DNA of 35,685 nt from Thalassococcus halodurans. Its GTDB lineage: Bacteria; Pseudomonadota; Alphaproteobacteria; Rhodobacterales; Rhodobacteraceae. Location: positions 1 to 35,685 of the forward strand of contig CATNDK010000004.1 of the NCBI GenBank assembly GCA_950096585.1. The letters are read 5' to 3'. The position numbers and the translations under genes were made by a program. This document shows positions 7,102 to 35,685 of the stretch, piece after piece. The number at the start of each line of letters is the position of its first letter. Within the stretch, counting starts at the first letter, position 1. The notes under the pieces are model-generated. The model saw only the letters and a program-made list of their open reading frames with translations, made no database searches and was not told the DNA's origin.

Positions 7102-8073
7102 TCAGGTGTCATCCGACGAGTTTACAGCTGTAAACTCGGCATAGGATTTCTTGATGATCTCAGTGAGATTGTTGTCCAACCAATTCGCAAACGCAGCGTT
7201 CGTACCGGTTTTCTTAACCGACATCGAAACAGCGCCACGGCTGGATTTGATGGTTACTCCGTCAATCGGCGTGACCTCGGCCAAGCCTGAATTGGGCCGG
7301 GGCACACGTTTGGTGGCCTCTTTGATCAGCGTTTCCAGCCGATCATCCGAGGGCATTTCGGGGGGCATCTTGGCAAGGATGCCAAGGGCGGCTTTGTCGG
7401 TCAGCTTTTTGGCGATGAAAAGCTCGGCCAATTCTGTCCAACGGGGGCGGCCCGATTTGGGCGCGGCCCCGATCTGATCGCCGACTTTCGTTGGGATATT
7501 TTGGGTGACCTTTGTCAGATGCGACAGCCCAGATGCGGACAGGTTCAACACCTGTCGCGCAGTGGCAGTGTCGTGGCCTGCGTTCTGGATCGCTTCGGCA
7601 AAGCGGGCCTTTTCGTAGAACGACAGGTTGCGCCGTGCCGCGTTTTCCAGACCCTTGGCCAGCAGGGCGGTCGCGTCATCCAGATCCTGAACGTTGGCGC
7701 GTACCTTGATGCCAAGTTCACGGCAGGCCTTCAGGCGGCGACGGCCATAGATCGCCTCGTATCGGCCATCAGTGGTTTTCGAACGGCGCACAAGGATCGG
7801 CACCTGCTGTCCACCGTCCTGAATGCTGGTTTTCAGCGCCTCAAGGCTTTGGTCATCGTCATCCGAGTTTACAGCTGTAAACTCGTCCAAACGGTCTGCC
7901 GGACCCCAATCGTCAATCAGGTTCGGATCAATCTCGCGGATTGAAGCAAGCGATCCTTGCAGCGCGCCAAGGGCAGGGGCGCTGGTTTTCGGCGTCTTTT
8001 CAGTGTTGCCTGTGCCGGATCGTGCGATGGTGCTGGCGATGCCGGACATGTCCCGAAGTGTCTTTCTGGCCAT
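7102..8073 (-). CDS. repB: ParB-family partition protein RepB
   Basis: ParB/Spo0J motifs VPILVRRSKTTDGRYEAIYGRRRLKACRELG and ENAARRNLSFYEKARF; start overlaps repA stop (TAATG). Confidence 0.92.
   Translation of the reverse strand: MARKTLRDMSGIASTIARSGTGNTEKTPKTSAPALGALQGSLASIREIDPNLIDDWGPADRLDEFTAVNSDDDDQSLEALKTSIQDGGQQVPILVRRSKTTDGRYEAIYGRRRLKACRELGIKVRANVQDLDDATALLAKGLENAARRNLSFYEKARFAEAIQNAGHDTATARQVLNLSASGLSHLTKVTQNIPTKVGDQIGAAPKSGRPRWTELAELFIAKKLTDKAALGILAKMPPEMPSDDRLETLIKEATKRVPRPNSGLAEVTPIDGVTIKSSRGAVSMSVKKTGTNAAFANWLDNNLTEIIKKSYAEFTAVNSSDDT
7117..7138. repeat. parS-like palindrome CGAGTTTACAGCTGTAAACTCG (copy 1, in 3' end of repB)
   Basis: Perfect 22-bp palindrome read directly. Confidence 0.85.
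7864..7885. repeat. parS-like palindrome CGAGTTTACAGCTGTAAACTCG (copy 2, in 5' part of repB)
   Basis: Identical 22-bp palindrome read directly. Confidence 0.85.
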
Positions 8074-9257
8074 TAGCTACGTCCCCATGCTTGCTGGATC
8101 ATGGCTTCTACTTCTTGCCCGACGGCATCCATTGACCCCTTCGCGCGGTCATAAGTGGCGCGGGTCATTTCCGAGCGGACGACTTCATAGATCGACTGTT
8201 TCAACATGGTCGCATCACTGATCGCGGTGCTTTTCAGTGCTGTTGCTGACATGACGCGATCCTGGAACAGGGCCCGCATGAACGACGTCAGTTGCTGCGA
8301 TGGTACGTCTGTCGGTTCGTCACGGGTGATCAGGAACTTGAAGTGGTCATAGTTCAGCGATGCGCCTGCGTCCTCGATCACGCCCATGTAAGCGCCGGCG
8401 AGTTCAAGAAACTGCGCGGTGGACGATACGTCCAGCATCGATGGGGTCAAAGGCACGATCAGAGAGCTGGCGGCGGCCATGCCGGCGATTGTCAGGAAGC
8501 CCAATTGAGGTGGGCTGTCCATCAGAACCAGATCAAAATCGTCCTCGACCTGCGCCAGAGCGTTCCGGATACGGGTAAAGAACGGCTGGTCGGGATTTGA
8601 ATGTACCGCTGATTCAGTCTCGAATTCCGATAACATCAGTCTCGAAGGCGCGATGGACAGGCCGGGGAAATATGTTGGCTGAACGACCTCGGTCATGGGC
8701 ACCGGATCGTCATAGCGGACAGCGTCGTAGATGGTCAGTCCGTCGAATTCGATTTCGGGGCTGATCCCGCACATTGACGTCAACGACCCCTGAGGATCGA
8801 GGTCGACCAGCAAAACACGGTAGCCGCGCAGGGCAAAGTAATGGGCCAGATGCACGGTGGTCGTACTTTTGCTGGACCCGCCTTTAAAGTTCATCAGCTG
8901 CCAGACCTGAAGCTTTTCATCACCGGTTCGGCGGGGCAGGTAGCGCCCCTTTTTTCGAGACGATTTCTCGAGGATCTCGCGGGCATCCCAGATTTCCTGC
9001 GCGGTGTAGTAGCGCCGTCCGCCGCGTTGTTCCTGCGGTTCGGGAATGGTGCCTTCGGCGTGCACTTTGCGCATGAATTGTCCCGAAACACCCAAAAGTT
9101 CAGCCGCCTCGGGGGCGGCGAAACTACGGAGCGTTTTGGTGTTGTCTGGCGCGAATGCCGACAGTAGGTGTTCACGGATCGCCGCGTTCAGCCGTTCGGA
9201 AATATCCGTGGCGAGTGCGGAGGGCCGTTCATCTGTGAGTGGTGTCACCGGAATCAT
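8073..9257 (-). CDS. repA: ParA-family partition ATPase RepA
   Basis: Walker-type FKGGSSKSTTTVHLAHYFALRGYRVLLVDLDPQGSLT; LVLMDSPPQLGFLTIAGM; N-terminal HTH. Confidence 0.93.
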   Translation of the reverse strand: MIPVTPLTDERPSALATDISERLNAAIREHLLSAFAPDNTKTLRSFAAPEAAELLGVSGQFMRKVHAEGTIPEPQEQRGGRRYYTAQEIWDAREILEKSSRKKGRYLPRRTGDEKLQVWQLMNFKGGSSKSTTTVHLAHYFALRGYRVLLVDLDPQGSLTSMCGISPEIEFDGLTIYDAVRYDDPVPMTEVVQPTYFPGLSIAPSRLMLSEFETESAVHSNPDQPFFTRIRNALAQVEDDFDLVLMDSPPQLGFLTIAGMAAASSLIVPLTPSMLDVSSTAQFLELAGAYMGVIEDAGASLNYDHFKFLITRDEPTDVPSQQLTSFMRALFQDRVMSATALKSTAISDATMLKQSIYEVVRSEMTRATYDRAKGSMDAVGQEVEAMIQQAWGRS

Positions 9258-15154: not shown

Positions 15155-16342
15155 CTATATGGACAGGGTTTTGGCTTCGCTCTCGATAATGTCGATCAGC
15201 AGGGCCTGCGCCTTGGTTGGCACCCAATTTTCCCGATAAGTCAGGCCGATAGGGCGGGCGGGCCAGTTGGCTGTGACGTCAAGCTCGCTCAAAAGTTGAT
15301 GCGAAAGCTCGGCTTGCGCCTGTACCGAAGAAATACCCCCGAGGTGATCGCTTTCGGCCAGAAGCTCGCGCATCAGCAAAATAGACCCAGCCTCGATGAT
15401 GCTTTCAGGCAAGCCGATTGGCGCAAAGAGCGCATCAAAGTGTTCGCGCGATGGTGTGCCGCGACGGGGAACGACCCATTTGCATTCCTGCAGGTCCTTG
15501 GCGGTCAAACCTGTTTTGCCCGCCAGCGGATGATCGCGACGTGCCAGCACCGACAGATGATCGTCAAACAGTTTGACCTGAGTGATGTCGCCGATGGGGG
15601 CGGGTTGGCGAAGGGCACCGATGATCAGGTCAACCTCGCCCCGTCTGAGATTTCCGAGCAATTCGTCATACCGTCCGTCAATCACCATCACCGGATAGCG
15701 CGGCCGTTGTTCACGGAACCGCGCCAAGGCGCGTGGCAAAAGAACGGAACGCGACAGCGGCAGGCTACCGACCACAATCTGCCCCGTTTCGCCACCGTCC
15801 AGTTCGGACAGGTCACTGTCCGCCTGATCAAGTTCGGCAAAGGCCAGCATCACCGCCTGCACCAGCGCGCGGGTCTGTCGTGTGGGCAAAAGACCAAAGG
15901 CCGTGCGTTCAAACAGGCTTTGCCCGGCTTCCTGTTCCAGTTGCGAAATGGCGCGGTGCACGGTTGGCTGGGCCAGCCCTAAACGGCGGGCGGCAAGGGT
16001 AAAGTTCTCGGCCTCATGAACCGCGACCAGCGATTGAAGCTGCGCCCATGTCGCCGTCAGCATCAGGCGCGGTGCGACATCGGTCAGCGCCGGATCAAGC
16101 CTGTCAAACGCGCGGCGCAGACGACGGGCCAACACCTCGCATCGCGGGGTGGGGAAAATGCCCTGACGGGTGCGGTCAAACAAACGTCCGCCGGTTTCAC
16201 GTTCCAGTTTCCCGATGGCTTGGGTGACGGCCGGTTGCGACACATTCAGGATCGACGCGGAATGGGTTAGCGAACCTGTTTCCGCGACCGATAACAATAG
16301 CCTAAGATGTCTGAGATTGCGCGACAAACCGTGGAATTCCAT
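15155..16342 (-). CDS. LysR-family regulator with two tandem N-terminal HTH domains
   Basis: Two HTH_1-like segments (NLRHLRLLLSVAETGSLTHSASILNVSQPAVTQAIGKLERETGGRLFDRT and TWAQLQSLVAVHEAENFTLAARRLGLAQPTVHRAISQLEQEAGQSLFERT), then a LysR substrate-binding domain. Confidence 0.9.
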   Translation of the reverse strand: MEFHGLSRNLRHLRLLLSVAETGSLTHSASILNVSQPAVTQAIGKLERETGGRLFDRTRQGIFPTPRCEVLARRLRRAFDRLDPALTDVAPRLMLTATWAQLQSLVAVHEAENFTLAARRLGLAQPTVHRAISQLEQEAGQSLFERTAFGLLPTRQTRALVQAVMLAFAELDQADSDLSELDGGETGQIVVGSLPLSRSVLLPRALARFREQRPRYPVMVIDGRYDELLGNLRRGEVDLIIGALRQPAPIGDITQVKLFDDHLSVLARRDHPLAGKTGLTAKDLQECKWVVPRRGTPSREHFDALFAPIGLPESIIEAGSILLMRELLAESDHLGGISSVQAQAELSHQLLSELDVTANWPARPIGLTYRENWVPTKAQALLIDIIESEAKTLSI

Positions 16343-21368: not shown

Positions 21369-23609
21369 TCAGACCCTAAGTTTGGGGTCGTCTGGCACCA
21401 CAATCCCACCCAAAAACTGCATCAGTCTTTGTGCGTCGATCGGCTTCGGCAGCAGCAACAGATTGGATTTGGCGCAGGCGTCGATCAGTTCGATCGACCG
21501 GTTTGCCGAAATGATGCAGGACGGGATCGGGCCGAATTCATCGGTGATCGCCCTGATCGCGTCCGTGCCCAAAGCGCCGTCATCCAGCTGATAATCGGCG
21601 ATGATGAAATCGGGCGACACTTCGATTTCGCGTAGCAGATCGACGGCGTGGTCCTGTCCGGGGCAGTCGATGACGTTCACGCCCCAGCCTTCCATGGTCA
21701 TGGTCAAAGCATTGCGCAGGTTTTCGTCGTTTTCGATCAGAAGGGCGATGACACCGGCCAGGTCGCCGTTCTGTTCGACATCGTTTTGCGGCTCTGTCCG
21801 GTCTGTATCCACCGCCACCACGTCAACGCGCGGGACCTCGATCGACAGCATGGTACCTTTGCCAACCTCGGATTCAAGCCGGACGGGATGTTTCAGCAAC
21901 CCGCAGGCACGTTCCACAATGGCAAGCCCCAGCCCCATGCCTTCGGCGGCGCTGGCGTCTGCGTTCAGGCGTTGGAATTCGCGGAATACGACCTCTTGCT
22001 GGTCTTTGGGAATGCCGATGCCCGTATCCCAGACCTCAATCCTTACAGAGTTCCCGACGTGGCGCGCGCCGACAAGGATTTTGCCCTTTTCCGAATAGCG
22101 GATCGCGTTCGACATCAGGTTTTGCACGATGCGCCGCAAATAGGCTGCATCGCTGGCGACCCGCGCCTTGGTCGGCACGATCCGCAGGTCCAGCCCCTTG
22201 GCATGGGCGGCAGGGCGGAAGGCGTCGCCAAGCTGGCGGAACATATCGCCCAACGGCACGGTCGACACGTGCACCGACGCGCGGCCTGAATCCAGTTTGG
22301 AGATATCCAGCAGCGCCTCAAGGATGTGTTCGACACTGTTCAACGCGCTTTCGGCCTTTGCGGCAACGCGGCGTGTTTCGTTGTCGTCATCACCGCCAAG
22401 CGAGGCGACGTAGAGTTTGGCCGCAGACAAGGGTTGCAGCAGGTCGTGACTGGCGGCCGCAACAAAGCGCGACTTCGATGCGTTCGCGCGTTCGGCGTCC
22501 AGCAATGCCTCGGCCAGTTCCTCGGTCCGGTCTGCAACGCGCTGTTCCAGCATTTCGTTGGCATTGGCCAATGCCTGCGCCGCTTGGCGTTCTGCGGTCA
22601 CGTCGGTGAAGGAAATCACAAACCCTTTGTCCGGCATTTCCTGTGCAAAAACAGATAGATAGTTGGTTCGTCCGCGATTGACCTCGAACGACAGGGGCGG
22701 GCGTTCGTCGGTGCTGTTGACCCAAGCTTCCACCGCTTCGGGCCCTGTGCCGCCTTCAAACGTCATTTCGGCACGGGCGCGGGTGAAAAGCGTGCTGAAC
22801 TGCGCGCCCATCTGGAATTGCGTGGTCGGGATCGCTAGCAACTCGCTGGCCCGCGTGTTCCAACCGGCCAGCCGCTGTTTGCTGTCAAAGATGCACAGAC
22901 CCTGATCGATATGTTCCAGCGTCGCGCGGATCAGGCGGGCTTGGTCGTCAAGGATACGATCCCGTTCCTGACGCTCGACGCGCATAATGTCGGTGATGTC
23001 TGTTTGCAGAATGACCGTGCCGCCATCCAGCGTCCTATGCTCGGATACCTGCACCCAGCGACGGCCGCTCATCCGGACGTTAAAGATAACGTGGTCGTCC
23101 TGATGCCGCTCCATCCGGCGGGTGGCCCAATCAAGGGGTGTTTCGGTATCGGGCAGCGACAGGTAGTGCGATTTGCTGACCAGATCGACGTAATCGATGA
23201 ACTGCAATCCGGGCACCAGCGCCTTGCGGATGTCGGGCATATGCATGCCGAAACGGCTGTTACATAGGACCAGTTCTTCGTCGGTGTTGAACAGGGCAAA
23301 GCCCTCTTGCACCGTTTCGATCGCATTGGCGAGGTTGGCGCGTGCCGCTTCGGTTTCCTGATTGGCCAGCGCCAAACGCCCGTTGGAATCGTTCAGCAAA
23401 TCCAGCGCACGTTCCAGATCCTGCGTGCGCGCGCGAACCTCTTGTTCCAGCATCGCGGCGCGTTGGAACTGTGCATAGGCCGCACCCGATGCGTTGGTGG
23501 ATTCCTCGACGCGACGCATCAACGACTCGGCGATTTTCAGCAGCTTTTCGTTCTGCCGTTCAAGCGGGTCGTTGGGATTAATGAGCGTCGGAATCATGGG
23601 AAAGGTCAC
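21369..23609 (-). CDS. Hybrid sensor histidine kinase (PAS, HisKA, HATPase, C-terminal REC), NahK/ErcS'-like
   Basis: H-box FVAAASHDLLQPLSAAKLYVASL, N/G boxes, C-terminal receiver IIADYQLDDG; overlaps the FIST gene. ATG at 23597 is an alternative start. Confidence 0.88.
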   Translation of the reverse strand: MTFPMIPTLINPNDPLERQNEKLLKIAESLMRRVEESTNASGAAYAQFQRAAMLEQEVRARTQDLERALDLLNDSNGRLALANQETEAARANLANAIETVQEGFALFNTDEELVLCNSRFGMHMPDIRKALVPGLQFIDYVDLVSKSHYLSLPDTETPLDWATRRMERHQDDHVIFNVRMSGRRWVQVSEHRTLDGGTVILQTDITDIMRVERQERDRILDDQARLIRATLEHIDQGLCIFDSKQRLAGWNTRASELLAIPTTQFQMGAQFSTLFTRARAEMTFEGGTGPEAVEAWVNSTDERPPLSFEVNRGRTNYLSVFAQEMPDKGFVISFTDVTAERQAAQALANANEMLEQRVADRTEELAEALLDAERANASKSRFVAAASHDLLQPLSAAKLYVASLGGDDDNETRRVAAKAESALNSVEHILEALLDISKLDSGRASVHVSTVPLGDMFRQLGDAFRPAAHAKGLDLRIVPTKARVASDAAYLRRIVQNLMSNAIRYSEKGKILVGARHVGNSVRIEVWDTGIGIPKDQQEVVFREFQRLNADASAAEGMGLGLAIVERACGLLKHPVRLESEVGKGTMLSIEVPRVDVVAVDTDRTEPQNDVEQNGDLAGVIALLIENDENLRNALTMTMEGWGVNVIDCPGQDHAVDLLREIEVSPDFIIADYQLDDGALGTDAIRAITDEFGPIPSCIISANRSIELIDACAKSNLLLLPKPIDAQRLMQFLGGIVVPDDPKLRV

Positions 23610-24771
23610 ACTCGGGCGGATAAATCGCGACGCCGGTCAGCGTCTGGTTCACATGGATCGAATTCAACTGTTCGCCGTAGGTCGAAAAACCCACAACATG
23701 ATTTTTGGCCAATATCTTGGACAAGGCCATGGTCATTTGTTTTTCCTGCGCTTCCAACCGTCGTAAAAGACAATCGCAGCCTAAAATAGTGTCAGGTGGC
23801 GTATCTTTCGAAAGCCCTGCGATTTCCTCTTCTAGATGTTTCACCATGTCCTGCGGTTCGGCCAGCGTCAGAACCAGTCCTTCGTCAATGGCTGAGAAAA
23901 ACACCAGATCGCCATTGTCGGCCACGCGCTGAATGGCACGTACGTGGTGTTCGCCGCCGATCTGCACCACGACAGGGTGGGCGGCAAAAGTGAAGGGCGT
24001 CAGCTGTTCGGGGTCTTTGCCCAGAATGCGTGCATATTCACGCGCCGCGGGTTCGGCGTTGATTTCGCGCACAATCCGGCGGGCGGGGTCGGCATCGGTC
24101 ACGACCATCCGTTGGGCGGTGGGGATCAGGTGATCTGACTTGAACACCTTGATCGGGCAGCGCGTGCGCACCTGTGTCAGGATCGCGGCGTTGGCCAGAA
24201 CCTGACCGTCGTGCATCACGTAGGAATGCGCAAACCGCGTCCCGTCGCCGGCAGATCCGCCAAACAGCGGCACAGGCCCAAGGCCAACCGCCAGTTCGGA
24301 TGTCAGCTGGTCTTCTTTCGTCGACAGCCCGTCGATCATCAGAAAGGTAAACTCGTGGTCCCAATCAGGGGCCGCTTCGATCATGGATGTGCGGTTCTGG
24401 ATCATCTGGTCGATCAGCGATTGTGCCTCGAACGTGTCCAGATCGGGGACCAGCAGGGTTTCGACCTTGAAGTGCGATTTAGGCAGGCCGACCGCGACGA
24501 TGTGATCTTCGGCATAGCCGTTGCCAGACAATTCGCCTGCCGTGGTGCAGCCGACGACAGGGGTAGGCGCAAAGGCCCGGGTGGCCTGTTCGATGATGGC
24601 TTCTGGGTCGGCGCTAGAGGTGACAAACAGAATCACGATTTCCAGACCATCAACGCCAAGGGTTGTGGCCAGCTCCGACACCGGATCGTCGGTTTTGTGA
24701 TAAACATAGGCGGTGCGCACTATTCCGTCCGCGCGGCCCGAGCCCCCATTCAGGCCCAACATCTGGTCCAT
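23578..24771 (-). CDS. FIST-domain sensor protein, NosP-like
   Basis: FIST N/C features PVVGCTTAGELSGNGY, LFGGSAGDGTRF, ILGCDCLLRRLE, VVGFSTYGEQL; directly upstream of the hybrid kinase. Confidence 0.8.
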   Translation of the reverse strand: MDQMLGLNGGSGRADGIVRTAYVYHKTDDPVSELATTLGVDGLEIVILFVTSSADPEAIIEQATRAFAPTPVVGCTTAGELSGNGYAEDHIVAVGLPKSHFKVETLLVPDLDTFEAQSLIDQMIQNRTSMIEAAPDWDHEFTFLMIDGLSTKEDQLTSELAVGLGPVPLFGGSAGDGTRFAHSYVMHDGQVLANAAILTQVRTRCPIKVFKSDHLIPTAQRMVVTDADPARRIVREINAEPAAREYARILGKDPEQLTPFTFAAHPVVVQIGGEHHVRAIQRVADNGDLVFFSAIDEGLVLTLAEPQDMVKHLEEEIAGLSKDTPPDTILGCDCLLRRLEAQEKQMTMALSKILAKNHVVGFSTYGEQLNSIHVNQTLTGVAIYPPECDLSHDSDAH

Positions 24772-24827
24772 CGAGCTTCCTCCCTAAAGCGCGACGTTTT
24801 ACCCGAGTATGCGTGAGTTCGCCGGGG

Positions 24828-25499
24828 TTACAAGCGATTGATCTCTGGCGCGCGTTTGGCCATCAACACCGCTTGGGTCCGGCTTTGCACCCCGAGCTTT
24901 CGAATGATTGCACTGACATGCGCTTTCACGGTTGTCTCGGCAATCGATAGATCAAAGGCGATTTGCTTGTTCAGTTTCCCTTGGCAGATCAGCTCCAGTA
25001 TCCGCGTTTGTTGTTTTGTCAGCGTCGCCAGCCGCTGTGCTTCGAAGTTGCGGACGCTGTCTTCGTCCGGCTCCAGCAAAACGCAACCCTCTGGCAGAAA
25101 CGTTTCGCCATTTTGCAACGCCTTGAACGCGTTTCGGAACACGTCCCTTTGGCTGTGTTTCGGCACATAGCCCGCAGCGCCGGAATGGATGACCTGACTG
25201 ATCAGGCAATCTTCTGTCATCGAAGACACCACGATCACAGGCGCCTTTGCCAGCCCGATCAGTTTCCGCACCGCTTCCAGCCCCTGAACACCGGGCATGT
25301 TCAGATCCAGCATGATCGCATCAGGCTCTAACCCGCCCTCAAGCATTTCAATTGCGCGGTCCAGACGATCGGCTGTGTGGATTTCGCCAATATTCGCCAC
25401 CGATTGCAGCGTCATCGACAACGCATCGCAAAACAGCGGGTGATCATCGACGATCAGAACCGATTTGAAAACGCAATGAATGGGGGCGTGCGCAAGCAT
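24828..25499 (-). CDS. NarL/LuxR-family response regulator (AgmR/ExaE-like position)
   Basis: REC domain SVLIVDDHPLFCDALSMTLQ, LDLNMPGVQGLEAV; C-terminal HTH QTRILELICQGKLNKQIAFDLSIAETTVKAHVSAIIRKLGVQSRTQAV. Confidence 0.9.
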   Translation of the reverse strand: MLAHAPIHCVFKSVLIVDDHPLFCDALSMTLQSVANIGEIHTADRLDRAIEMLEGGLEPDAIMLDLNMPGVQGLEAVRKLIGLAKAPVIVVSSMTEDCLISQVIHSGAAGYVPKHSQRDVFRNAFKALQNGETFLPEGCVLLEPDEDSVRNFEAQRLATLTKQQTRILELICQGKLNKQIAFDLSIAETTVKAHVSAIIRKLGVQSRTQAVLMAKRAPEINRL

Positions 25500-25642: not shown

Positions 25643-27403
25643 TTACTTCATGGCCAGCTGCTTGGGCAGCTTGAATGTCCACAGCATGCCACCTTGGTTC
25701 AGGTAGTTGACCTTTTTGGCAACTTCACCACCCCAGAGCGGAACCGCGCCACCCCAGCCAGAGATAACCGACACATACTGTTCGCCGTCCTGTTCCCATG
25801 TGATGGGCTGACCGACGATGCCGGAACCTGTCTGGAACGACCACAGTTTTTCACCTGTTTCGTCATCCAGAGCGATGAACTCACCTTCAGGCGTGCCGAA
25901 GAATACCAGACCGCCAGCGGTGGTCATAACACCCGACCAAAGCGGTGCTTCGTTCTTGTATTCCCAGACCCAGTCGCCTGTTTCCGGATCGATCGCCTTC
26001 AGGCTGCCGATGTGGTCTTCGTAGTTCGGCTTGATGGTAAAGCCCGCACCCAGGTACGCCGCGCCTTTTTTGTAGGTGATCGGCTCGTTCCAGATATCCA
26101 TGCCCCATTCGTTGGACGGAACATAGAAGTTGCCTGTGCGCTGCGAGAACGCCATCGGCATCCAGTTCTTACCACCTAGGAAGGACGGGGATGCAAAGAT
26201 AACTTCGCCTTTGGCACCATCTGCTGCCTCGGCGGGGTTACCCGGACGGTTTTCTTCAACAAAGATCGGACGACCGTTTTCGTCGATACCGCTTGCCCAA
26301 GAGATGTCCTTGACGAAGGGTGCCGCGCTGATGAAGTCGCCTGTTTCACGATCCAGAACGTAGAAATAGCCGTTACGGTCAGCTGTCGCATAACGCTTTT
26401 CGCCGTTGCGGTCGGTGTAGGCGACGACTTCGTTTACGCCGTCATAGTCCCAACCTTCGCGCGGGGTTGTCTGGAAGTGCCACTTGATTTCGCCTGTTGC
26501 AGGGTCGATGCCGATACGGCTTGCTGCGTACAGGTTGTCACCTTCGGTGCCTTCGGGGTTGCCAGCAGAACGCAACCAGCTGTTCCACGGGGCAGGGTTA
26601 CCCGCGCCGAATACCAGCGTGTCTGTCTCTGCGTCATAAGAGCCGCCCAGCCATGTCGCGCCGCCACCTGTTTTCCACAGATCGCCCGGCCATGTCGCGT
26701 TCAGCGTGCCGGTCATTGTGGATTCTTCGCCGTTCAGCGTACCCATGTGACCTTCGATCACCGGACGTGTCCAAACCATTTCGCCTGTTTCGGCGTTACG
26801 GGCCTGAACTTCGCCAACGATACCGAATTCGCCGCCAGAGTTACCTGTGACAACCAGACCGTTCACGATCAGCGGAGCTGCTGTGTAGGAATAGCCGGCT
26901 TTGTAATCAGCGATCTTGTCGCGCCAGACAACGTCACCTGTTTTCAGGTCCAGAGCCACGATGCGGGCGTCCAGTGTGCCGAAATAGATGTTGTTGCCGT
27001 AGATGGCCGCGCCGCGGTTAACCACGTCACAGCAGGGCAGGATGCCTTCGGGCAGACGTGCGTCGTACTGCCAGATTTCCTTGCCTGTTTTGACGTCGAT
27101 CGCGAACAGACGGGAATAGGAACCCGTGATGTACATGATGCCGTCGTAAATCAGCGGCTGGGTTTCCTGACCGCGCTGCTTTTCACCGCCAAGGCTGAAG
27201 GCCCAGGCAGGAACAAGGTTATCGACGTTTTCTTTGTTCAGAGTCTCCAGCGGGCTGTAGCGCTGAAGGTGACGACCCATACCATTGGTCACAACCTGTG
27301 TTGTGATGGTCTGGTCGTTGGCCACATCCTGTTCGGTGACCTCGGCATAGGCGGTTGTTGCAGCCAATACGCCAGCAACAGCGGCCATAATGAAACGGTT
27401 CAT
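25643..27403 (-). CDS. PQQ-dependent alcohol dehydrogenase, ExaA/ExaF/PedH-like, with lanthanide-type Asp
   Basis: [20 protein letters not shown], vicinal cysteines [15 protein letters not shown], tryptophan-docking-like repeats, [18 protein letters not shown]; active-site segment WDYDGVNE; signal peptide. Confidence 0.93.
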
Positions 27404-27814: not shown

Positions 27815-28363
27815 CTAGAAAAGCGGCGCGTATTTCCAGTTGTCGGCGTCTGGTGTCACCTCATCCAGATCGTAATCGGCGCCCTGCAAACGCTTGGCGA
27901 TCTTCAGGCCGTCCTTTGCGGCTTCGTCCACATAGGCCCGCCCAAGCGCATCATTTCTGGCCACGCCATGTCCGCGCATCAGGTCCAGTCCATAGTTGAA
28001 CTTGCCGACCGGATCGCCCAATTTGGCGGCCTTCAGATCCCAGTTCGCAGCGGCATCGGGGTTATATTCGCCACCCAATCCGTTGTTATCCAGCTGGCTC
28101 ATCCACGTCATCGCGCCAGTGTATCCGGCGTCGGCACAGGCCTGAAACAACTTGCGCGCGGCCTCGTGGCGACCGGATTTGGTGATGTAGTAGCCGGTGG
28201 CGCAGGTCACCATGTCGGTGACACCGTTATCGATGTTCGACATCACGCGGCCAAAGCCCGTGTCCTGCGGGTTCAGCGTTCCGAAATCGTCTTCAATCGT
28301 CTGGGTCTCGGCTGCCAAAGGCAGCGCGAAAACGCAACAAATGGCGCATAAAACGTGTTTCAC
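27815..28363 (-). CDS. Secreted Sel1/TPR-like repeat protein
   Basis: Signal peptide KHVLCAICCVFALPLAAE and Sel1-like GDPVGKFNYGLDLMRGHGVARNDALGRAYVDEAAKDG; GTG start at 28363 with AGAGGAGA RBS preferred over the listed ATG at 28420. Confidence 0.7.
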   Translation of the reverse strand: MKHVLCAICCVFALPLAAETQTIEDDFGTLNPQDTGFGRVMSNIDNGVTDMVTCATGYYITKSGRHEAARKLFQACADAGYTGAMTWMSQLDNNGLGGEYNPDAAANWDLKAAKLGDPVGKFNYGLDLMRGHGVARNDALGRAYVDEAAKDGLKIAKRLQGADYDLDEVTPDADNWKYAPLF

Positions 28364-28468
28364 GGCAAATCTCCTCTGGGGAAACCGTAACATGGATGCG
28401 CTTGGCGATCTTGGGTGCAATGGTCGTATTTCTGGTCAGCACTGCTGGCCTAATCTACGACCCTGCCA

Positions 28469-29431
28469 TCAGTTGGTCGGGCGTAGAGCAGCCCCCCAAG
28501 GGAAACGGCCCACCTTGATTGTCTTGATCGCCTTACGCTTGGCCACATCGACAACTGTCACGTCACCGGAAACGCCGTTCGTGGTGAACAGCAGCGATTT
28601 GTCGGCGTTGAATTCCATGTGCCAGACACGGCGGCCGACCAGAATGTAATCTTCGACCTCGAAGGTATCGGCGTTGATCACGGCCAGATGGTTGGACGGG
28701 CCAAGGGCAACAAAGGCGGTCTTTTCATCATCTGTCAGCTCGAACCCCACGGGCTGTACACGGTCGGGGTGAACCCCCTGAATTTCGAACCGGATTTTGC
28801 CCTTTTCCGCTTGGGTCGCGACATCAAACACAGTGATGGTGCCGCCGATTTCGGAACTGACCCAAAGCTCGGAGCCCTCTTTAACAAACTCGGCATGGCG
28901 CGGGCGGGAATCGACCAGCGTATTCGCGAACAACTGTTCGCTTTCCGTGTCGATCCAATGGGCCATGTTGGTGGTTTCAGAGGTTGTGATCGCGATGGTG
29001 CCATCGGGTGACACGGCCATGCCTTCGGGTTCGATGCCTACGTCGATCTGCGCAATCACCTTGCGGGTTTCTGTATCCACAACTGTGGTGATCGCGTCGT
29101 CTTCGTTGGCGATGTAAAGGCGGCGGTTGTCGGGGTGCAGCACAAACTGTTCGGGGTCTTCGCCCGAGGGCAGGTCATGCAGGATTTCACCTGTTTCAGG
29201 GTCCATCACCTGAACCGCATCGCTGTCGGATGCGCAGATATAAACAACCGAGTGATCCTTGGAAAAGGTGATGCCGCGCGGGCGTTCACCGGTCGGGATG
29301 GTGCGCACGACCTCTAGCGTGTCGATGTCGATCACGCTGATCGTGTCGTCCTTTTCGTTGGTGACCCAAATCTCGTCGGCAAGGGCAGGGGCCGCCAGAA
29401 GCGTAGCGGCGGCAAGGGCGATAAGTTTCAT
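28469..29431 (-). CDS. YVTN-type beta-propeller protein (PQQ-dependent catabolism-associated)
   Basis: Signal peptide MKLIALAAATLLAAPALA and repeated WVTNEKDDTISVIDIDTLEVVRTIPTGERPRGI-type blades. Confidence 0.85.
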   Translation of the reverse strand: MKLIALAAATLLAAPALADEIWVTNEKDDTISVIDIDTLEVVRTIPTGERPRGITFSKDHSVVYICASDSDAVQVMDPETGEILHDLPSGEDPEQFVLHPDNRRLYIANEDDAITTVVDTETRKVIAQIDVGIEPEGMAVSPDGTIAITTSETTNMAHWIDTESEQLFANTLVDSRPRHAEFVKEGSELWVSSEIGGTITVFDVATQAEKGKIRFEIQGVHPDRVQPVGFELTDDEKTAFVALGPSNHLAVINADTFEVEDYILVGRRVWHMEFNADKSLLFTTNGVSGDVTVVDVAKRKAIKTIKVGRFPWGAALRPTN

Positions 29432-29432
29432 C

Positions 29433-30602
29433 TTAGTCCTCGTCAAAAGCGGTGCATTTGGATTCGGGCTGATCAATTCCTAGCGTGTCCAGCTCGCTGA
29501 CCTGATGCAAAAACCCTTCTAAAGGGGCGGTGGCCACAACGGCACGGCCTGTGACCAGCGGAATCGGCTGGCGCAACTGGCCGTTCCAGCCGCGATAATT
29601 CATCGGGCGGCCTTTGAAGCCGGCCAGTTCGAACGCATCCGACAGGATGTAGTCGCGCAAAGTGGCCGGATCATCGGATTGGGTCCGCGTGACAGCCTCG
29701 CCCAGCGACCGGAAGGCGGCCCAGGCGGCATAGTCTTCGCTGCGCATGTCACGGCCTGTCAATTCATGGAATCGGTTCTGCATCTGGACCGCGCCCCACT
29801 GTTCGACAACGTCGGACCATGCAACGGGACGCAGCCCGTCCGATCCCGCGACAGGGCGGGCGATCCATGTGTTGTACGCAATATACCGGCCGAAATCGTC
29901 CAACTCGTCGGCCAGCAGAAGGGCGTCGTATTCACCCAGATCCTGCGTGAATAGCGGCACTTCCTGCGCGGCGTTGCGGCGCATGTCGGCGTTGAACACC
30001 CACTCTTTTTCGGCCTTCAACTCCAGACCGAATTTGGTGACCGACTGTTTTAGCGATTCAGCAAAGGCCTGATCCTGCGGATGCGCGCCGGATATCAGGG
30101 CCAATGTCGTCCAGCGACGTTTCACAAAGAACTGGACCAGCGCGTCGGTGCGCATGCGATTGGATGGCAAGGTGTGCAAAAGATTGGCACGGCAGGATTC
30201 GTTGCGCAGCGCCACATCGGGGCTGGTCGCATTGAAAAGCAGGGCATCTTTGGCCTCGGGTAGGTCCGCGACCCCTAGCAAAAGGTCGGATGGTGCATCG
30301 AGGATGACATAGGGCGACAAGGCCAGAGCCTGTTTCGCAGAAGCAATCCAGTCACCGCCTTCCGGTACAACAATCGTTTCCAGCGTATAGGTATGACCCA
30401 GAAATTTGCCGGTGGTCATGTTGTCGGCAAGGCCCAGATCGGCCCCCGCAGACCCAAGATCATCGGGGATCGGATCAAGGTTCGACAGAACCGGCGGGCG
30501 CGGAACGTCTTGTTTTAGATAGACAACCGGAACCTCGATTGCCGCAGACACAACCTGCGGCAGCGCAAGCGCCAGAAACAACATCTGAAACAGTCGAAAC
30601 AT
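29433..30602 (-). CDS. ABC-transporter-type substrate-binding protein of PQQ-alcohol dehydrogenase clusters
   Basis: Signal peptide FRLFQMLFLALALPQVVSA; periplasmic branched-chain-type fold features; position in the cluster; GGGAGGAG RBS before ATG 30602. Confidence 0.72.
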   Translation of the reverse strand: MFRLFQMLFLALALPQVVSAAIEVPVVYLKQDVPRPPVLSNLDPIPDDLGSAGADLGLADNMTTGKFLGHTYTLETIVVPEGGDWIASAKQALALSPYVILDAPSDLLLGVADLPEAKDALLFNATSPDVALRNESCRANLLHTLPSNRMRTDALVQFFVKRRWTTLALISGAHPQDQAFAESLKQSVTKFGLELKAEKEWVFNADMRRNAAQEVPLFTQDLGEYDALLLADELDDFGRYIAYNTWIARPVAGSDGLRPVAWSDVVEQWGAVQMQNRFHELTGRDMRSEDYAAWAAFRSLGEAVTRTQSDDPATLRDYILSDAFELAGFKGRPMNYRGWNGQLRQPIPLVTGRAVVATAPLEGFLHQVSELDTLGIDQPESKCTAFDED

Positions 30603-30760
30603 CGACATCTCCTCCCTCTCCAACATCGTTAGAGCATCCAAAATATCGCCTTCACATTGGACCATGGTCGAAGATCGTGGCGGTCTTCAACCAAGGTCGC
30701 ATTTCGCTGTGGTGGAAAGTCGGGCTATCTCGGTGGAAACCGCATGAACAGGAGGAAATC

Positions 30761-31441
30761 ATGCTCGTTGATTTTCGCATCACACTTTTGGGCGCACTTA
30801 CGGCTGGTACAATGGCTATGGCCCATGGTGACGTCGCCCCGCAGCCCATCAACACAGACGTTCTGCCCGACGTGGGCGAAGAATGGCTGACAGAAAACCC
30901 CTACCGCGCTGAAGAAGTCGGCGAAGAGACATGGGCAGCCGCCATCAAGATCGGTGATTCCGGTTACAATCAGAACTGTGCGCGCTGCCACGGTCTGGGC
31001 GCTGTTTCGGGCGGTCTGGCCCCCGACCTGCGTTACCTCGAAGCCGAAGAGTTCGGCGACGAATGGTATGTTGAGCGTTTCCAGGTTGGCTACACGCAGA
31101 ACGGCATCACCAAGATGCCCGCGTTCGGTGAGCTTCTGGGCCAAAAGGCCGCTTGGGCCATCCGCACATACATCGAAACACGCCCCGATGACGGCGCTCT
31201 GGACGACTATGCCGATCGCTTGAAAGAGATCCGCGATGAGTTGGCCGGCATGTCCGCCGGTGATGATGCATCCGCGCTTCAGGCTGAGCTGTCCGAAATC
31301 GCAGGCAACATCGAAACAGCTTCGGGCGCGCCCGTTGCAGACAGCATCGCGATGCGTGCGGCGAACCTTCTGGCAGGTGACACACCTGAATATGCAGAAG
31401 CAGCCGAACAGCTCACAATCGGATTGTCTGCCGCAAATTAA
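30761..31441 (+). CDS. Cytochrome c, c-550 PedF-like
   Basis: Signal peptide, single heme motif CARCH (NQNCARCHGLGAVSGGLAPDLRYL), RBS GGAGG before ATG 30761. Confidence 0.85.
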   Translation: MLVDFRITLLGALTAGTMAMAHGDVAPQPINTDVLPDVGEEWLTENPYRAEEVGEETWAAAIKIGDSGYNQNCARCHGLGAVSGGLAPDLRYLEAEEFGDEWYVERFQVGYTQNGITKMPAFGELLGQKAAWAIRTYIETRPDDGALDDYADRLKEIRDELAGMSAGDDASALQAELSEIAGNIETASGAPVADSIAMRAANLLAGDTPEYAEAAEQLTIGLSAAN

Positions 31442-31450
31442 CGCGGCAGA

Positions 31451-32356
31451 TTGGGGCACATGATTAGACGCGCCTTCCTCCTCACCTCAATCATCGGGTC
31501 TCTCCTTGCGGGACCCGCACTGGCTAGGTGCGAAGATCACGTGCCCCAACCCAAACCCCAAAACGCCAGCCGCGATATCGTGGGGGCGGATTTGGATACG
31601 ATCATTGATCGTGGGTACATCGAAATTGCCGCTTACGAAGATTTTCCGCCGTGGTCCTATGAGGAGGACGGGAAGATCAAGGGCGTTGATATCGAAATCG
31701 GCCGCCTGATCGCGGCTGATCTGGGCGTTGAGCCCCGCTTCAAGCTGGTGACAGCGGGCGAAAACCTTGATGCCGATCTGCGCAACTGGATCTGGAAAGG
31801 TCCGCTGATCGGCGGAAGCGTGGCAAATGTCATGCTGCACATCCCCTATGACAGCGACTATGCCTGCCGCGTGGAACAGGTGGTCTTTACCGGCCAGTAC
31901 CACGTCGAAGAGGTTGCTATCGCCTACCGCAAAGATGCCTACCCCGAGGATTTGCCCGTTCCGGCCTATTTCCGGTTTGATACGGTGGCCGTGGAAAACG
32001 ACTCGATCGCCGATTTCTACCTGACCTCGTTCCCAGGTGGCCAACTGGCCGCCAACGTGCGGCGGTATCCGACCGCCGCTGGCGCGATGCAGGCTTTGGC
32101 TGACGGCGAAACCAAAGCGGCCATGGGCCCCTTGGCACAGCTTGAGTTTGGTCTGACCGAAGATTTGGGCGTACACACGCCGCCGCTGCCGGGGTTTGCT
32201 GCGGGCAACTGGACCAGCGGCGTTGCGGTGCATTTCGCCTATCGTGGCCTCAGCTATGCCGTAGATGACGCCATCTACGCCGCCATTCAGGATGGCCGCA
32301 TGCAGGCGATCTTTGACAGCTACGGGCTGACCTTCAGACCACCCGAGCTGCGCTAA
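31451..32356 (+). CDS. Quinoprotein-dehydrogenase-associated periplasmic solute-binding protein (XoxJ/MoxJ-like)
   Basis: Signal peptide; IEIAAYEDFPPWSYEEDGKIKGVDIEIGRLIAADLG typical of family 3 solute-binding proteins; adjacent to the cytochrome c gene. Confidence 0.8.
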   Translation: MGHMIRRAFLLTSIIGSLLAGPALARCEDHVPQPKPQNASRDIVGADLDTIIDRGYIEIAAYEDFPPWSYEEDGKIKGVDIEIGRLIAADLGVEPRFKLVTAGENLDADLRNWIWKGPLIGGSVANVMLHIPYDSDYACRVEQVVFTGQYHVEEVAIAYRKDAYPEDLPVPAYFRFDTVAVENDSIADFYLTSFPGGQLAANVRRYPTAAGAMQALADGETKAAMGPLAQLEFGLTEDLGVHTPPLPGFAAGNWTSGVAVHFAYRGLSYAVDDAIYAAIQDGRMQAIFDSYGLTFRPPELR

Positions 32357-33240
32357 AGTTCAGTGATTGAGCCGTTGTGACCGACGCAAATCGCCGTCGG
32401 CGCGCCGTCGATTGCGCGTAGCGTGGCTGCGATTTCATAGGCATCTGCATAGCAGAACGCCGTGGACAGCGCGTCTGCGGTTACGGCTTCGTCCGCTTCG
32501 ACACTGACGGTTGACCACAGCGGTTGCCCCGCACCTTGCAGGTTCACGATATGTGGCTGGCCATCGGCCAATGTCATGGCCAATGGGCTGGATGTGGCGA
32601 TGGCGCGGTTGCGTAACACGCGTGTCTGAACCAACCCGTATTCGGGATCGGAGACGCCCAATGTCCAGTTGCGCCCGTTGCCGCGAAACTCGCCGATATT
32701 TACCAGAACATCTGTCAGGCCCGCATCGATTAAAACCTGCGTCGCCAGATCGGTGACAAAGCCCTGCGCAATACCATTCAGGGTCAGTTCCTGACCCGCG
32801 CCAAGGGTGATGCGATCCGGTGTGAACGTGACCTGTTCCCAGCCGATCAGGTGCTGAACCGGATAAGGATCGTGGCCCTGCGCCAGGGCTGACCACAGCG
32901 GTTGGACCGTCGGATCGAACCGGCCATTTGTGGCGCGATGCATCCTGTCACAACGGGTGATCAACTGATGGAATCTGGGATCAGGCCGCTGCAAGACACC
33001 GTCTTTGTTCAACTGCGACAGGGCCGAGAACGGATCATACAGGCTGAAGAGCGACTCGCATTCCGCCAACAACTGGCGGACTTGGGCAATCGCGGGTTTT
33101 GCAATCTCAGGCGGCGCATCCAGCGTCAGGGCGACCTCGGCCCCCATGGCGACACCCTGCCATTTAACGGGCGCCGATGCCATTGCCGGAGTGGCAAGCG
33201 CGGCCGCGCTAATGGTCAGGAAACGTCTGCGCGAAATCAT
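32353..33240 (-). CDS. apbE: FAD:protein FMN transferase (ApbE family)
   Basis: WQGVAMGAEVALTLDAP, LNGIAQGFVTDLA, VNIGEFRGNG, DALSTAFCY; start overlaps the NosR-like gene stop (ATGA). Confidence 0.85.
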   Translation of the reverse strand: MISRRRFLTISAAALATPAMASAPVKWQGVAMGAEVALTLDAPPEIAKPAIAQVRQLLAECESLFSLYDPFSALSQLNKDGVLQRPDPRFHQLITRCDRMHRATNGRFDPTVQPLWSALAQGHDPYPVQHLIGWEQVTFTPDRITLGAGQELTLNGIAQGFVTDLATQVLIDAGLTDVLVNIGEFRGNGRNWTLGVSDPEYGLVQTRVLRNRAIATSSPLAMTLADGQPHIVNLQGAGQPLWSTVSVEADEAVTADALSTAFCYADAYEIAATLRAIDGAPTAICVGHNGSITEL

Positions 33241-35303
33241 TCTGCGGCCACCTTCTGTCTGCTGCCCCGTTCCTTCAGGATCAGTGGCACGCATTGTTTT
33301 GGATCATCATGGATAGTTACGCAATCCAGACACTGGAAGCATTCGCTATATTGGATTTCACCGGTACGTTTGATTGCGCCATATTGGCATTTCACGCGGC
33401 ACAGCTGGCAGGGTGATCCGCATTCGTCGCGCCGTGCGATCCAGTCGCGTCCACGCAGAAGCCCGCCAATCGCCATCACGGCCCCAAGCGGGCAGACATA
33501 GCGGCAGAACCCCTTGAACATCACCATGCCCAGCACCAGCCAGAATACGGCATAAGCGACATAGTACCATTCCCGCACAAAGAAGGTGGTGATCGCGGTT
33601 TTGAACGGCTCGACCTCGGCCGCTTTGTCGGCTTGGTCAGGTGCGATAAAGGCAATGGCGATCAGGCCGGCCAGCACCACGTATTTCAAGTATTTCAACC
33701 GCTTGTCCCACGCCGCGGGCACGTCGATCTGGGGCACACGCAGGAGACGCCCCAAGTGATGTGCAAATTCTTGCAACGCGCCGAACGGGCAAAGCCACCC
33801 GCAAAACAGGCCACGACCCCAGGCCACAAAGCCCGCAATGGTCACTGCCCAGATCAGCAGCGAAAACGGATCGTATAGAAGGAAGGCAAAGCTGCCGCCT
33901 TCGACCGCTGCGCGAAGGGTTCCGATGACGGTGACAATCGACAGCTGGCCTTGCCCCCACCAGCCGATAAAGCCCGTGACCACAGCCAATATGGCCAACC
34001 GAACGGGGGTAAAGCGGGGCAGGGCGGCAAGCGCGTTCATTTTGAACGCCAAGGCCACCAACAGGCCGGTCAGGAAGACGGCCAGAACAATCATGTCTGT
34101 TTGGCGGTTGCGCAATGCCTCAAGCCACGGGGGGGCCGGTTTGATCTGAACGGGACGTGTGAAAAAGCGCTCCGGCGTTGAATGGGCAACCTCGATGGTG
34201 ACGGACCCGATTTCAGGCTGGAACACCCCATGTTCGCGCAGGGCCAGTACCTTCAGCGTCCAGTCGCGCGACGGATCAAATCCCAGCCGACGGTCGGTGC
34301 GCAGGATCATCGCGGTGCCGTCAGGTGCGCCATCGGCCAGTTCCACGAACAGGTCTGCGTCGCGCAGCGCCACAGGAAGACCATCCTGTTCGGCGGATAG
34401 CCAGTCCGGCGAGGTGTTGCGCACGAACTCCTCGCTCACCAACCCGTGTCGTGCGGTTTCGATCAGAAGCAGCGGTTCGTCGTTGTCCGAGATCTCCATA
34501 AAGCGCTGAAGCTCTTCATAGGTGTCATCGGACAGGGCTGCCTTGGCGATGGATTGGGGCCCCAGATCGACGATCCACAAATCAAGATAGGCCTCGTCGG
34601 GATAATCACTGGCCTCGGGGTCGTCATCGGCCCAGCGGGTGCCTGCAAACAGCACGTTGATTTCCGCGTTGCTCAGCTGTTTGCGCGTGGCGATGCCTTG
34701 GGACACCAGATCATCCCACGTCAGATTCTCGGAATACTCGGGGTCCGGATAGGCAGGGGGCGAGGTGGCGATGCCCTGCATCTTTTCCCGCGCCACGGCC
34801 AGCGCGGCCCCCATCACCGATTCATGCGCGATCCGGACGCTGGCGGTCGCCTTGGTCACGCCGTCCAGATAGACCAGCGACGATCCAGAGGCCCCTTCGC
34901 CATAAGGGGTGCCAACAACGATGGAATCCGAAATCGACAAGCCGCCGTATTGTTCAAAGAACTTGTGAAACGGTGCCTCGCCCAGACCGGACACAAAGAT
35001 CGGTTCATTGTGGCTGATCAGCTGGACATCGAGAAACTTGCCCTCAAGATCCAGGACAACCAGCACATTGATCGGCGCGCCGGAAAAGCCGGGCAGGGGG
35101 GCCAGGGGTTCGGTCTCGAACACATAGCCCGCGGTCTGTCCGCCCGCATTCTCCAGTGTCCAGACACCTTTATCGTTGACGGGGTCCCCCAGCAGGAAAG
35201 GCGGAATGACCCGTTCGGCCAGCGCCTCTCGGCTCATCAGGTCGGCCCGGGCGGTGCCGGTCAGCAGGCAGAGACAGGTCAGAAAGGTGAGGATCACGCG
35301 CAT
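33237..35303 (-). CDS. NosR/NirI-like membrane flavo-iron-sulfur protein (FMN-binding domain, TM helices, two CxxxCP motifs, ferredoxin-like C-terminus)
   Basis: FMN-binding segment YLDGVTKATASVRIAHESV; CGWLCPFGALQEF; CRYVCPLGAVMAIGG; CGSPCQLCRVKCQYGAI and CFQCLDC. Confidence 0.87.
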   Translation of the reverse strand: MRVILTFLTCLCLLTGTARADLMSREALAERVIPPFLLGDPVNDKGVWTLENAGGQTAGYVFETEPLAPLPGFSGAPINVLVVLDLEGKFLDVQLISHNEPIFVSGLGEAPFHKFFEQYGGLSISDSIVVGTPYGEGASGSSLVYLDGVTKATASVRIAHESVMGAALAVAREKMQGIATSPPAYPDPEYSENLTWDDLVSQGIATRKQLSNAEINVLFAGTRWADDDPEASDYPDEAYLDLWIVDLGPQSIAKAALSDDTYEELQRFMEISDNDEPLLLIETARHGLVSEEFVRNTSPDWLSAEQDGLPVALRDADLFVELADGAPDGTAMILRTDRRLGFDPSRDWTLKVLALREHGVFQPEIGSVTIEVAHSTPERFFTRPVQIKPAPPWLEALRNRQTDMIVLAVFLTGLLVALAFKMNALAALPRFTPVRLAILAVVTGFIGWWGQGQLSIVTVIGTLRAAVEGGSFAFLLYDPFSLLIWAVTIAGFVAWGRGLFCGWLCPFGALQEFAHHLGRLLRVPQIDVPAAWDKRLKYLKYVVLAGLIAIAFIAPDQADKAAEVEPFKTAITTFFVREWYYVAYAVFWLVLGMVMFKGFCRYVCPLGAVMAIGGLLRGRDWIARRDECGSPCQLCRVKCQYGAIKRTGEIQYSECFQCLDCVTIHDDPKQCVPLILKERGSRQKVAAE

Positions 35304-35463
35304 GGCCGCGACCCTAGGCCCGCCCGAAACGCGCCCCTATGCGACCTTGGTCGGATTGGGGTGGCCTGACGCAAAGGTGATTGATCTACGACCTTAGGCG
35401 AAGTGATCCGCCCACGCCCGCCATGCTAGCCTTTGCGGCATGGTACGACAGGGAGGGTCCGCC

Positions 35464-35685
35464 ATGTTCATCCGCACCGCGTTTGCCGCGCTGATTGCCG
35501 TTGCAGGCAGCGCCGCCGTCGCTCTCGACGATCCGCAGACCGTTCTGCAGGATCCGATGGGGTCCGGCATGTGGAATTACCACCAGAAGGGGCTGCTGGG
35601 CGATCCCGCCGACATCCGCTTTGACGACCGGGTGGTGCTGCGCGCGCCGGCCTCGGCCGAGGACACCCTGAACGTGCCCCTGCTG
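35464..35685 (+). CDS. Quinoprotein dehydrogenase-associated SoxYZ-like carrier, 5' part (truncated by window edge)
   Basis: MFIRTAFAALIAVAGSAAVALDDPQTVLQDPMGSGMWNYHQKGLLGDPADIRFDDRVVLRAP..., open to the last base. Confidence 0.65.
   Translation, partial: MFIRTAFAALIAVAGSAAVALDDPQTVLQDPMGSGMWNYHQKGLLGDPADIRFDDRVVLRAPASAEDTLNVPLL

Follow-up and report, generated by a model that had tools for sequence, protein, structure and literature searches.

We analysed contig CATNDK010000004.1 (35,685 nucleotides, hereafter the window), one whole contig of a metagenome-assembled genome (MAG; 80% complete) from the Rhodobacteraceae, which encodes a NosR-like membrane flavo-iron-sulfur protein beside the gene cluster of a pyrroloquinoline quinone (PQQ) alcohol dehydrogenase. 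The NosR-like protein belongs to the system of the cytochrome PedF and, judged by its sequence, it is a non-denitrification paralogue of NosR that forms a separate clade. Its motifs, its gene order, its position in the tree and its co-occurrence with PedF are established at that same level, and the role that we propose for it below is tentative.

Results

The NosR-like protein is paired with PedF

The family was surveyed in 199 genomes, which represent about 198 genera of Rhodobacteraceae. PedF scored over its cut-off in 42 genomes, a NosR-like protein of the window type was also found in 42, and 40 genomes had both (Fisher p 4e-37). The two were kept together even where their genes lie far apart on one contig, at distances of about 2.1 Mb in G036, about 240 kb in G088 and about 130 kb in G198. 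Among 80 homologous loci, several of which lie on contigs that end early, PedF, a PedG-like protein, PedA1 and PedA2 were near the NosR-like gene in 60. Because the co-occurrence reaches 40 of 42 genomes and holds where the genes are unlinked, we place the NosR-like protein in the PedF system and do not regard it as a cytochrome stand-in.

An association of flavinylated NapH/NosR-like proteins with ExaA dehydrogenases has been published before, and the general idea is not new. Meheust et al. (2021) described NapH-like flavinylated clusters with the ExaA ethanol oxidase in 172 genomes, and in their model the flavoprotein does the cytochrome's job (PMC8238504). Those clusters are like the one in the window in combining a CX3CP/Fe-S membrane protein predicted to bind FMN (flavin mononucleotide), ApbE and a PQQ alcohol dehydrogenase cluster; they differ in that their flavoprotein replaces the cytochrome, whereas here it joins PedF. 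With PedF encoded in the same cluster and present in 40 of the 42 genomes, we reject cytochrome replacement for the Rhodobacteraceae, and the tight pairing corrects the published view in this respect. In the literature that we searched, we found no account of a near-obligate NosR-PedF pairing in Rhodobacteraceae, nor of the alternation with SoxYZ described below.

The gene is not a denitrification nosR

Rhodobacteraceae have two kinds of NosR that are sharply apart, with 60-91% and about 31-41% identity to the window protein, and nosZ goes with the lower-identity kind. In the tree, the window-type proteins grouped on a single branch, long-stemmed and with full support, from which every nosZ-linked NosR protein was separate. 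Window-type NosR and nosZ co-occurred at chance level (p 0.55), whereas the other type was linked to nosZ (p 4e-36). The original prediction had placed the gene in an alcohol-oxidation rather than a denitrification setting and had proposed a genome search for nosZ; we found no nosZ in the window's own MAG, in Thalassococcus halodurans (99% complete) or in the 80 homologous loci fetched, and the setting is borne out, also by the near one-to-one link to PedF.

An ordinary NosR, a denitrification electron donor or regulator, might lie at this locus by chance, and the best NCBIfam match is indeed NosR (NF046105). The score of 472.8 bits, however, does not reach the equivalog cut-off of 1000, and given also the missing nosZ and the separate clade we reject this reading as extremely improbable. 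The window protein shares with the NosR and NosX/ApbE of nitrous oxide (N2O) reduction the domain layout, the FMN threonine, two CX3CP motifs, two 4Fe-4S motifs and an ApbE partner; unlike them, it belongs to a separate clade (31-35% identity to nosZ-linked NosR), comes without nosZ and has an alcohol-oxidation neighbourhood. Stand-alone NosR-like genes without nosZ nearby were also seen in six genomes outside the class (loci L176, L177, L178, L179, L183 and L186), all six of which have PedF.

Motifs and fold suggest a flavinylated iron-sulfur protein

The open reading frame, the D147-G-V-T-K-A-T153 motif, the CxxxCP and ferredoxin centres and the 4-base overlap with apbE, all claimed in the original prediction, were located as listed in Table 1. 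The apbE start codon (33240-33238) overlaps the nosR TGA within ATGA, and a same-strand apbE adjoins the NosR-like gene in 73/80 homologous loci. In the window, a PF12801 membrane Fe-S domain (50.2 bits) and an ApbE (PF02424, 126.7 bits) occur in one cluster. The pattern D-x-x-[ST]-x-[AG]-T fits 77 of the 80 homologues, and T153 and all redox cysteines are invariant across 38 aligned NosR proteins, ped-type and nosZ-type together. This conservation is far above chance and is consistent with the predicted covalent FMN on Thr153. The AlphaFold model has fair confidence (predicted local distance difference test score, 78), and a fold search with its N-terminal domain gave RnfG, a subunit with covalent FMN, as the best solved match (E 3e-3, probability 1.00). 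A SoxZ-like fold in the periplasmic region, raised by a weak match to 2ox5 (probability 0.41), was ruled out by profile comparison (probability 0.4%).

Table 1. Features of the window discussed in the text (positions in the 35,685-nucleotide contig)
Feature	Position	Strand	Basis
NosR-like membrane flavo-iron-sulfur protein, 688 amino acids (aa)	33237-35303	-	NF046105 TransRegNosR 472.8 bits; PF12801 50.2 bits; alignments
Predicted site of FMN attachment, Thr153 (codon ACC) of DGVTKAT, residues 147-153	34845-34847	-	Motif conservation
First CX3CP motif, CGWLCP, residues 501-506	33786-33803	-	Sequence, alignments
Second CX3CP motif, CRYVCP, residues 600-605	33489-33506	-	Sequence, alignments
C-terminal ferredoxin-type cysteines, two predicted [4Fe-4S] clusters, residues 628-671	33291-33422	-	Alignments
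Predicted ApbE FMN transferase, RRRF-type N-terminus	32353-33240	-	PF02424 126.7 bits (cut-off 25.6)
SoxYZ-like carrier gene, Mameliella-like, cut short by the contig end; candidate ATG codons 35440 and 35464	35440-35685	+	TIGR04557 20.5 bits, partial
26-bp block, switch from Mameliella-like to Thalassococcus-like	35068-35093		Identical in both
PedG-like periplasmic solute-binding protein, convergent with apbE	31451-32356	+	PF00497
PedF cytochrome c550; conserved part about 30779-31189, start probably internal to the reading frame	30539-31441	+	TIGR04494 187.9 bits (cut-off 122)
PedA1-like binding protein of PQQ/lanthanide ATP-binding cassette (ABC) transporter	29433-30665	-	TIGR03863 475.9 bits (cut-off 413.6)
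PedA2-like beta-propeller protein	28469-29476	-	TIGR03866 527 bits
PQQ alcohol dehydrogenase, W-D-Y-D (lanthanide-type extra Asp) and PCC disulfide-ring motif	25643-27403	-	TIGR03075 763 bits; sequence
ErdR-like response regulator, NosP-like nitric oxide sensor and NahK/ErcS-like kinase, adjoining the dehydrogenase	21369-25499	-	NF041830, NF041558, NF041832

SoxYZ and NosR may alternate outside the family

Outside Rhodobacteraceae, the sample comprised 28 genomes with PedF from across Pseudomonadota. One SoxYZ row (L149) had the wrong orientation and was disregarded. SoxYZ scored over its cut-off in 0/10 of the PedF genomes with a non-nosZ NosR and in 15/18 of the others (p 2e-5). Two genomes of one genus, G283 and G364, show the order pedF-pedG-SoxYZ-SoxH-alcohol dehydrogenase, whereas in their congener G279 the order is pedF-pedG-alcohol dehydrogenase, with the SoxYZ-SoxH pair cleanly absent from between pedG and the dehydrogenase and NosR located elsewhere. 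Inside Rhodobacteraceae, nearly every PedF genome has NosR. Ten genomes of the family in the combined set have both NosR and SoxYZ, and many of them carry a second, SoxYZ-bearing cluster elsewhere. One interpretation is that NosR and SoxYZ are alternative modules, which these data suggest as a lead and not as a result.

The SoxYZ-like gene lies in a probably chimeric contig end

The original prediction also named a divergent SoxYZ-like carrier as an unexplained partner of the NosR-like protein, and this claim did not hold for this genome. The gene is a stub of 82 codons that runs to the contig end, scores 20.5 bits against a TIGR04557 cut-off of 140 and is 70% identical to a full-length relative. 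Over its terminal ~620 bp (about 35068-35685), the contig matches Mameliella sp. CS4 at about 99% identity, and past the 26-bp block at 35068, into nosR, this identity drops sharply. Identity to T. halodurans is 47-68% near the nosR 5' end and rises to about 92-97% beyond the switch. The foreign-looking stretch thus covers the SoxYZ stub and nosR codons 1 to ~72 (about 35088-35303). T. halodurans is the closest relative among the genomes compared, with a contig of 96,339 bases in the same gene order and about 95-100% protein identity for the common genes, and there a hydrogenase-like operon and not SoxYZ lies upstream of nosR (read by eye). A chimeric join is the simplest reading of the contig end, although a very recent recombination is possible.

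A working pair of the NosR-like protein and its adjacent SoxYZ carrier would find some support in the divergent adjacency seen in Mameliella (L077 and L085), G021 and G152, and in the adjacency in G032. The pair adjoins in only 2 of the 80 named loci, where a NitT/TauT-type permease or pqqB more often takes the divergent position; moreover, NosR and SoxYZ are mutually exclusive outside the family in our sample, and the contig end is suspect. We therefore reject SoxYZ as a conserved NosR partner and consider such a pair in this organism very improbable.

Two further observations concern the replicon. ParA-like and RepB/ParB-like genes lie at 7102-9257 of the window. In the 96-kb counterpart of T. 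halodurans, nosR is split across both contig ends, which overlap, and this suggests that the counterpart is a circular plasmid.

The neighbourhood is that of a lanthanide-type alcohol dehydrogenase

The attachment of the NosR-like gene to an alcohol dehydrogenase cluster, another claim of the original prediction, was confirmed by the PQQ alcohol dehydrogenase cluster alongside it. An extra aspartate, as in PedH and XoxF, is the typical mark of lanthanide enzymes. The window dehydrogenase has this residue two positions past the catalytic aspartate (W-D-Y-D), W-D-[YF]-D was found in 17/17 readable dehydrogenases of the homologous loci, and the PCC motif was present in nearly all. By this signature, the window enzyme is predicted to be of the lanthanide type.

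PedA1A2BC is the lanthanide transporter of Pseudomonas putida (PMC12997753). The P. putida ped cluster (PedF, PedG, PedA1A2BC, PedH, the SoxYZ-like PP_2677 and the SoxH-like PP_2678) resembles the window in PedF, PedG, PedA1, PedA2, a lanthanide-type dehydrogenase and NosP/PedS1-like regulators. Unlike the window, it has SoxYZ/SoxH, and a review of the P. putida cluster names neither NosR nor ApbE (PMC12997753). The NosP-like sensor, NahK/ErcS-like kinase and ErdR-like regulator of the window lie next to the dehydrogenase, as in Pseudomonas ped/exa regulons.

Several other genes were noted in the window and in the homologous loci. A conserved 201-aa protein (27815-28420) has a Sel1-repeat match below threshold, belongs to no NCBIfam family and recurs in 26/80 homologous loci. 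Another protein of ~150 aa, apparently secreted and with no NCBIfam match (12507-12965 of L035, and homologues), lies beside the PedA2 propeller in 44/80. A NitT/TauT-type ABC transporter (permease, binding protein and ATPase) is tied to homologous clusters (3175-3981 of L039 and 3635-5220 of L037). At 15155-16342 of the window, a 395-aa LysR-type reading frame matches LysR profiles in two stretches and perhaps has a duplicated or fused DNA-binding domain. An Rfam scan of the window gave no matches.

Discussion

One hypothesis, which we put forward tentatively and at somewhat less than even confidence, is that the NosR-like protein works alongside PedF as an outward electron supply for the upkeep of the lanthanide-type PQQ alcohol dehydrogenase system. 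Its characterised relatives are believed to carry electrons through the inner membrane to an enzyme of the periplasm, which for NosR is N2O reductase; PceC and NapH are placed here by analogy (PMC7660919, PMC5928378). On the periplasmic face, ApbE would link FMN to Thr153, and electrons would pass between the two cytoplasmic [4Fe-4S] clusters, the membrane CX3CP sites and the periplasmic FMN, most likely in the outward direction, as in characterised relatives. The outgoing electrons may maintain a working redox state of the quinoprotein or of its cytochrome, and in other bacteria the same servicing might be done by SoxYZ/SoxH. Of the known systems, PceC/RdhC of organohalide respiration is alike in combining an exocytoplasmic domain for covalent FMN, predicted in the window protein, with a CX3CP membrane part; it differs in that PceC has no Fe-S centres at its C-terminus and belongs with a reductive dehalogenase.

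Alternatively, the protein might provide a second, inward route, in which the dehydrogenase would hand electrons to the FMN and the quinone pool would receive them by way of the Fe-S centres, parallel to or instead of cytochrome c. This is the model of Meheust et al. for the 172 genomes with NapH-like and ExaA clusters (PMC8238504), and it agrees with a gammaproteobacterial-type locus (L187) in which the NosR gene lies directly 3' of the dehydrogenase gene. We nevertheless think that it is possible but doubtful: PedF is nearly always kept alongside, so the cytochrome is not replaced; free FMN (-205 mV) would be a poor electron acceptor from PQQ unless strongly tuned; and the characterised relatives supply reductases. 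Because PedF is already present to take the dehydrogenase electrons, outward supply seems somewhat more likely than an inward route. A further possibility is that the protein helps the cell to take up or handle the lanthanide or PQQ; it might, for instance, hold a carrier or metal site in the reduced state. PedA1 accompanies it in 39/42 NosR genomes, and NosR adjoins pqqB in about 17 loci and the NitT/TauT-type permease in about 36/80. On the other hand, 18 PedA1 genomes are without a window-type NosR, the neighbours are variable, and there is no direct tie to metal redox chemistry; we consider a handling role improbable.

Several points weigh against outward supply for upkeep and against the alternation with SoxYZ that accompanies it. 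The Pfam FMN_bind domain (PF04205) scored 15.8 bits in the NosR-like protein, under its cut-off of 22. The partner is a dehydrogenase, and an outward flow would call for an as yet hypothetical electron consumer. Outside Rhodobacteraceae, 16 of the 28 PedF genomes are without any NosR, and NosR is therefore not a general requirement of PedF systems. When phylogeny was taken into account by means of independent pairs on the PedF tree of all 72 PedF genomes, seven pairs differed in NosR; SoxYZ changed in the opposite way in 4.5 of these on average and in the same way in none (sign test p about 0.06). Finally, the Rhodobacteraceae table gave no exclusion, with nine genomes having both (p 0.42), mostly with SoxYZ at other loci.

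One could envision two exchangeable modules, both serving one and the same maintenance of PedF-linked lanthanide quinoproteins in the periplasm: the flavinylated NosR-like conduit together with its ApbE, and the sulfur relay of SoxYZ/SoxH. We offer this as a speculation that we think rather unlikely.

The 'NosR' or '4Fe-4S binding protein' annotations in many marine Rhodobacterales probably denote alcohol oxidation and not denitrification, and the use of such NosR-like genes as markers of N2O reduction would give misleading counts. If the two systems are interchangeable, the job of SoxYZ/SoxH would be a redox job and each system could substitute for the other. The alternation, if it holds, would open two accessory systems of lanthanide quinoproteins, both unexplained so far, to testing.

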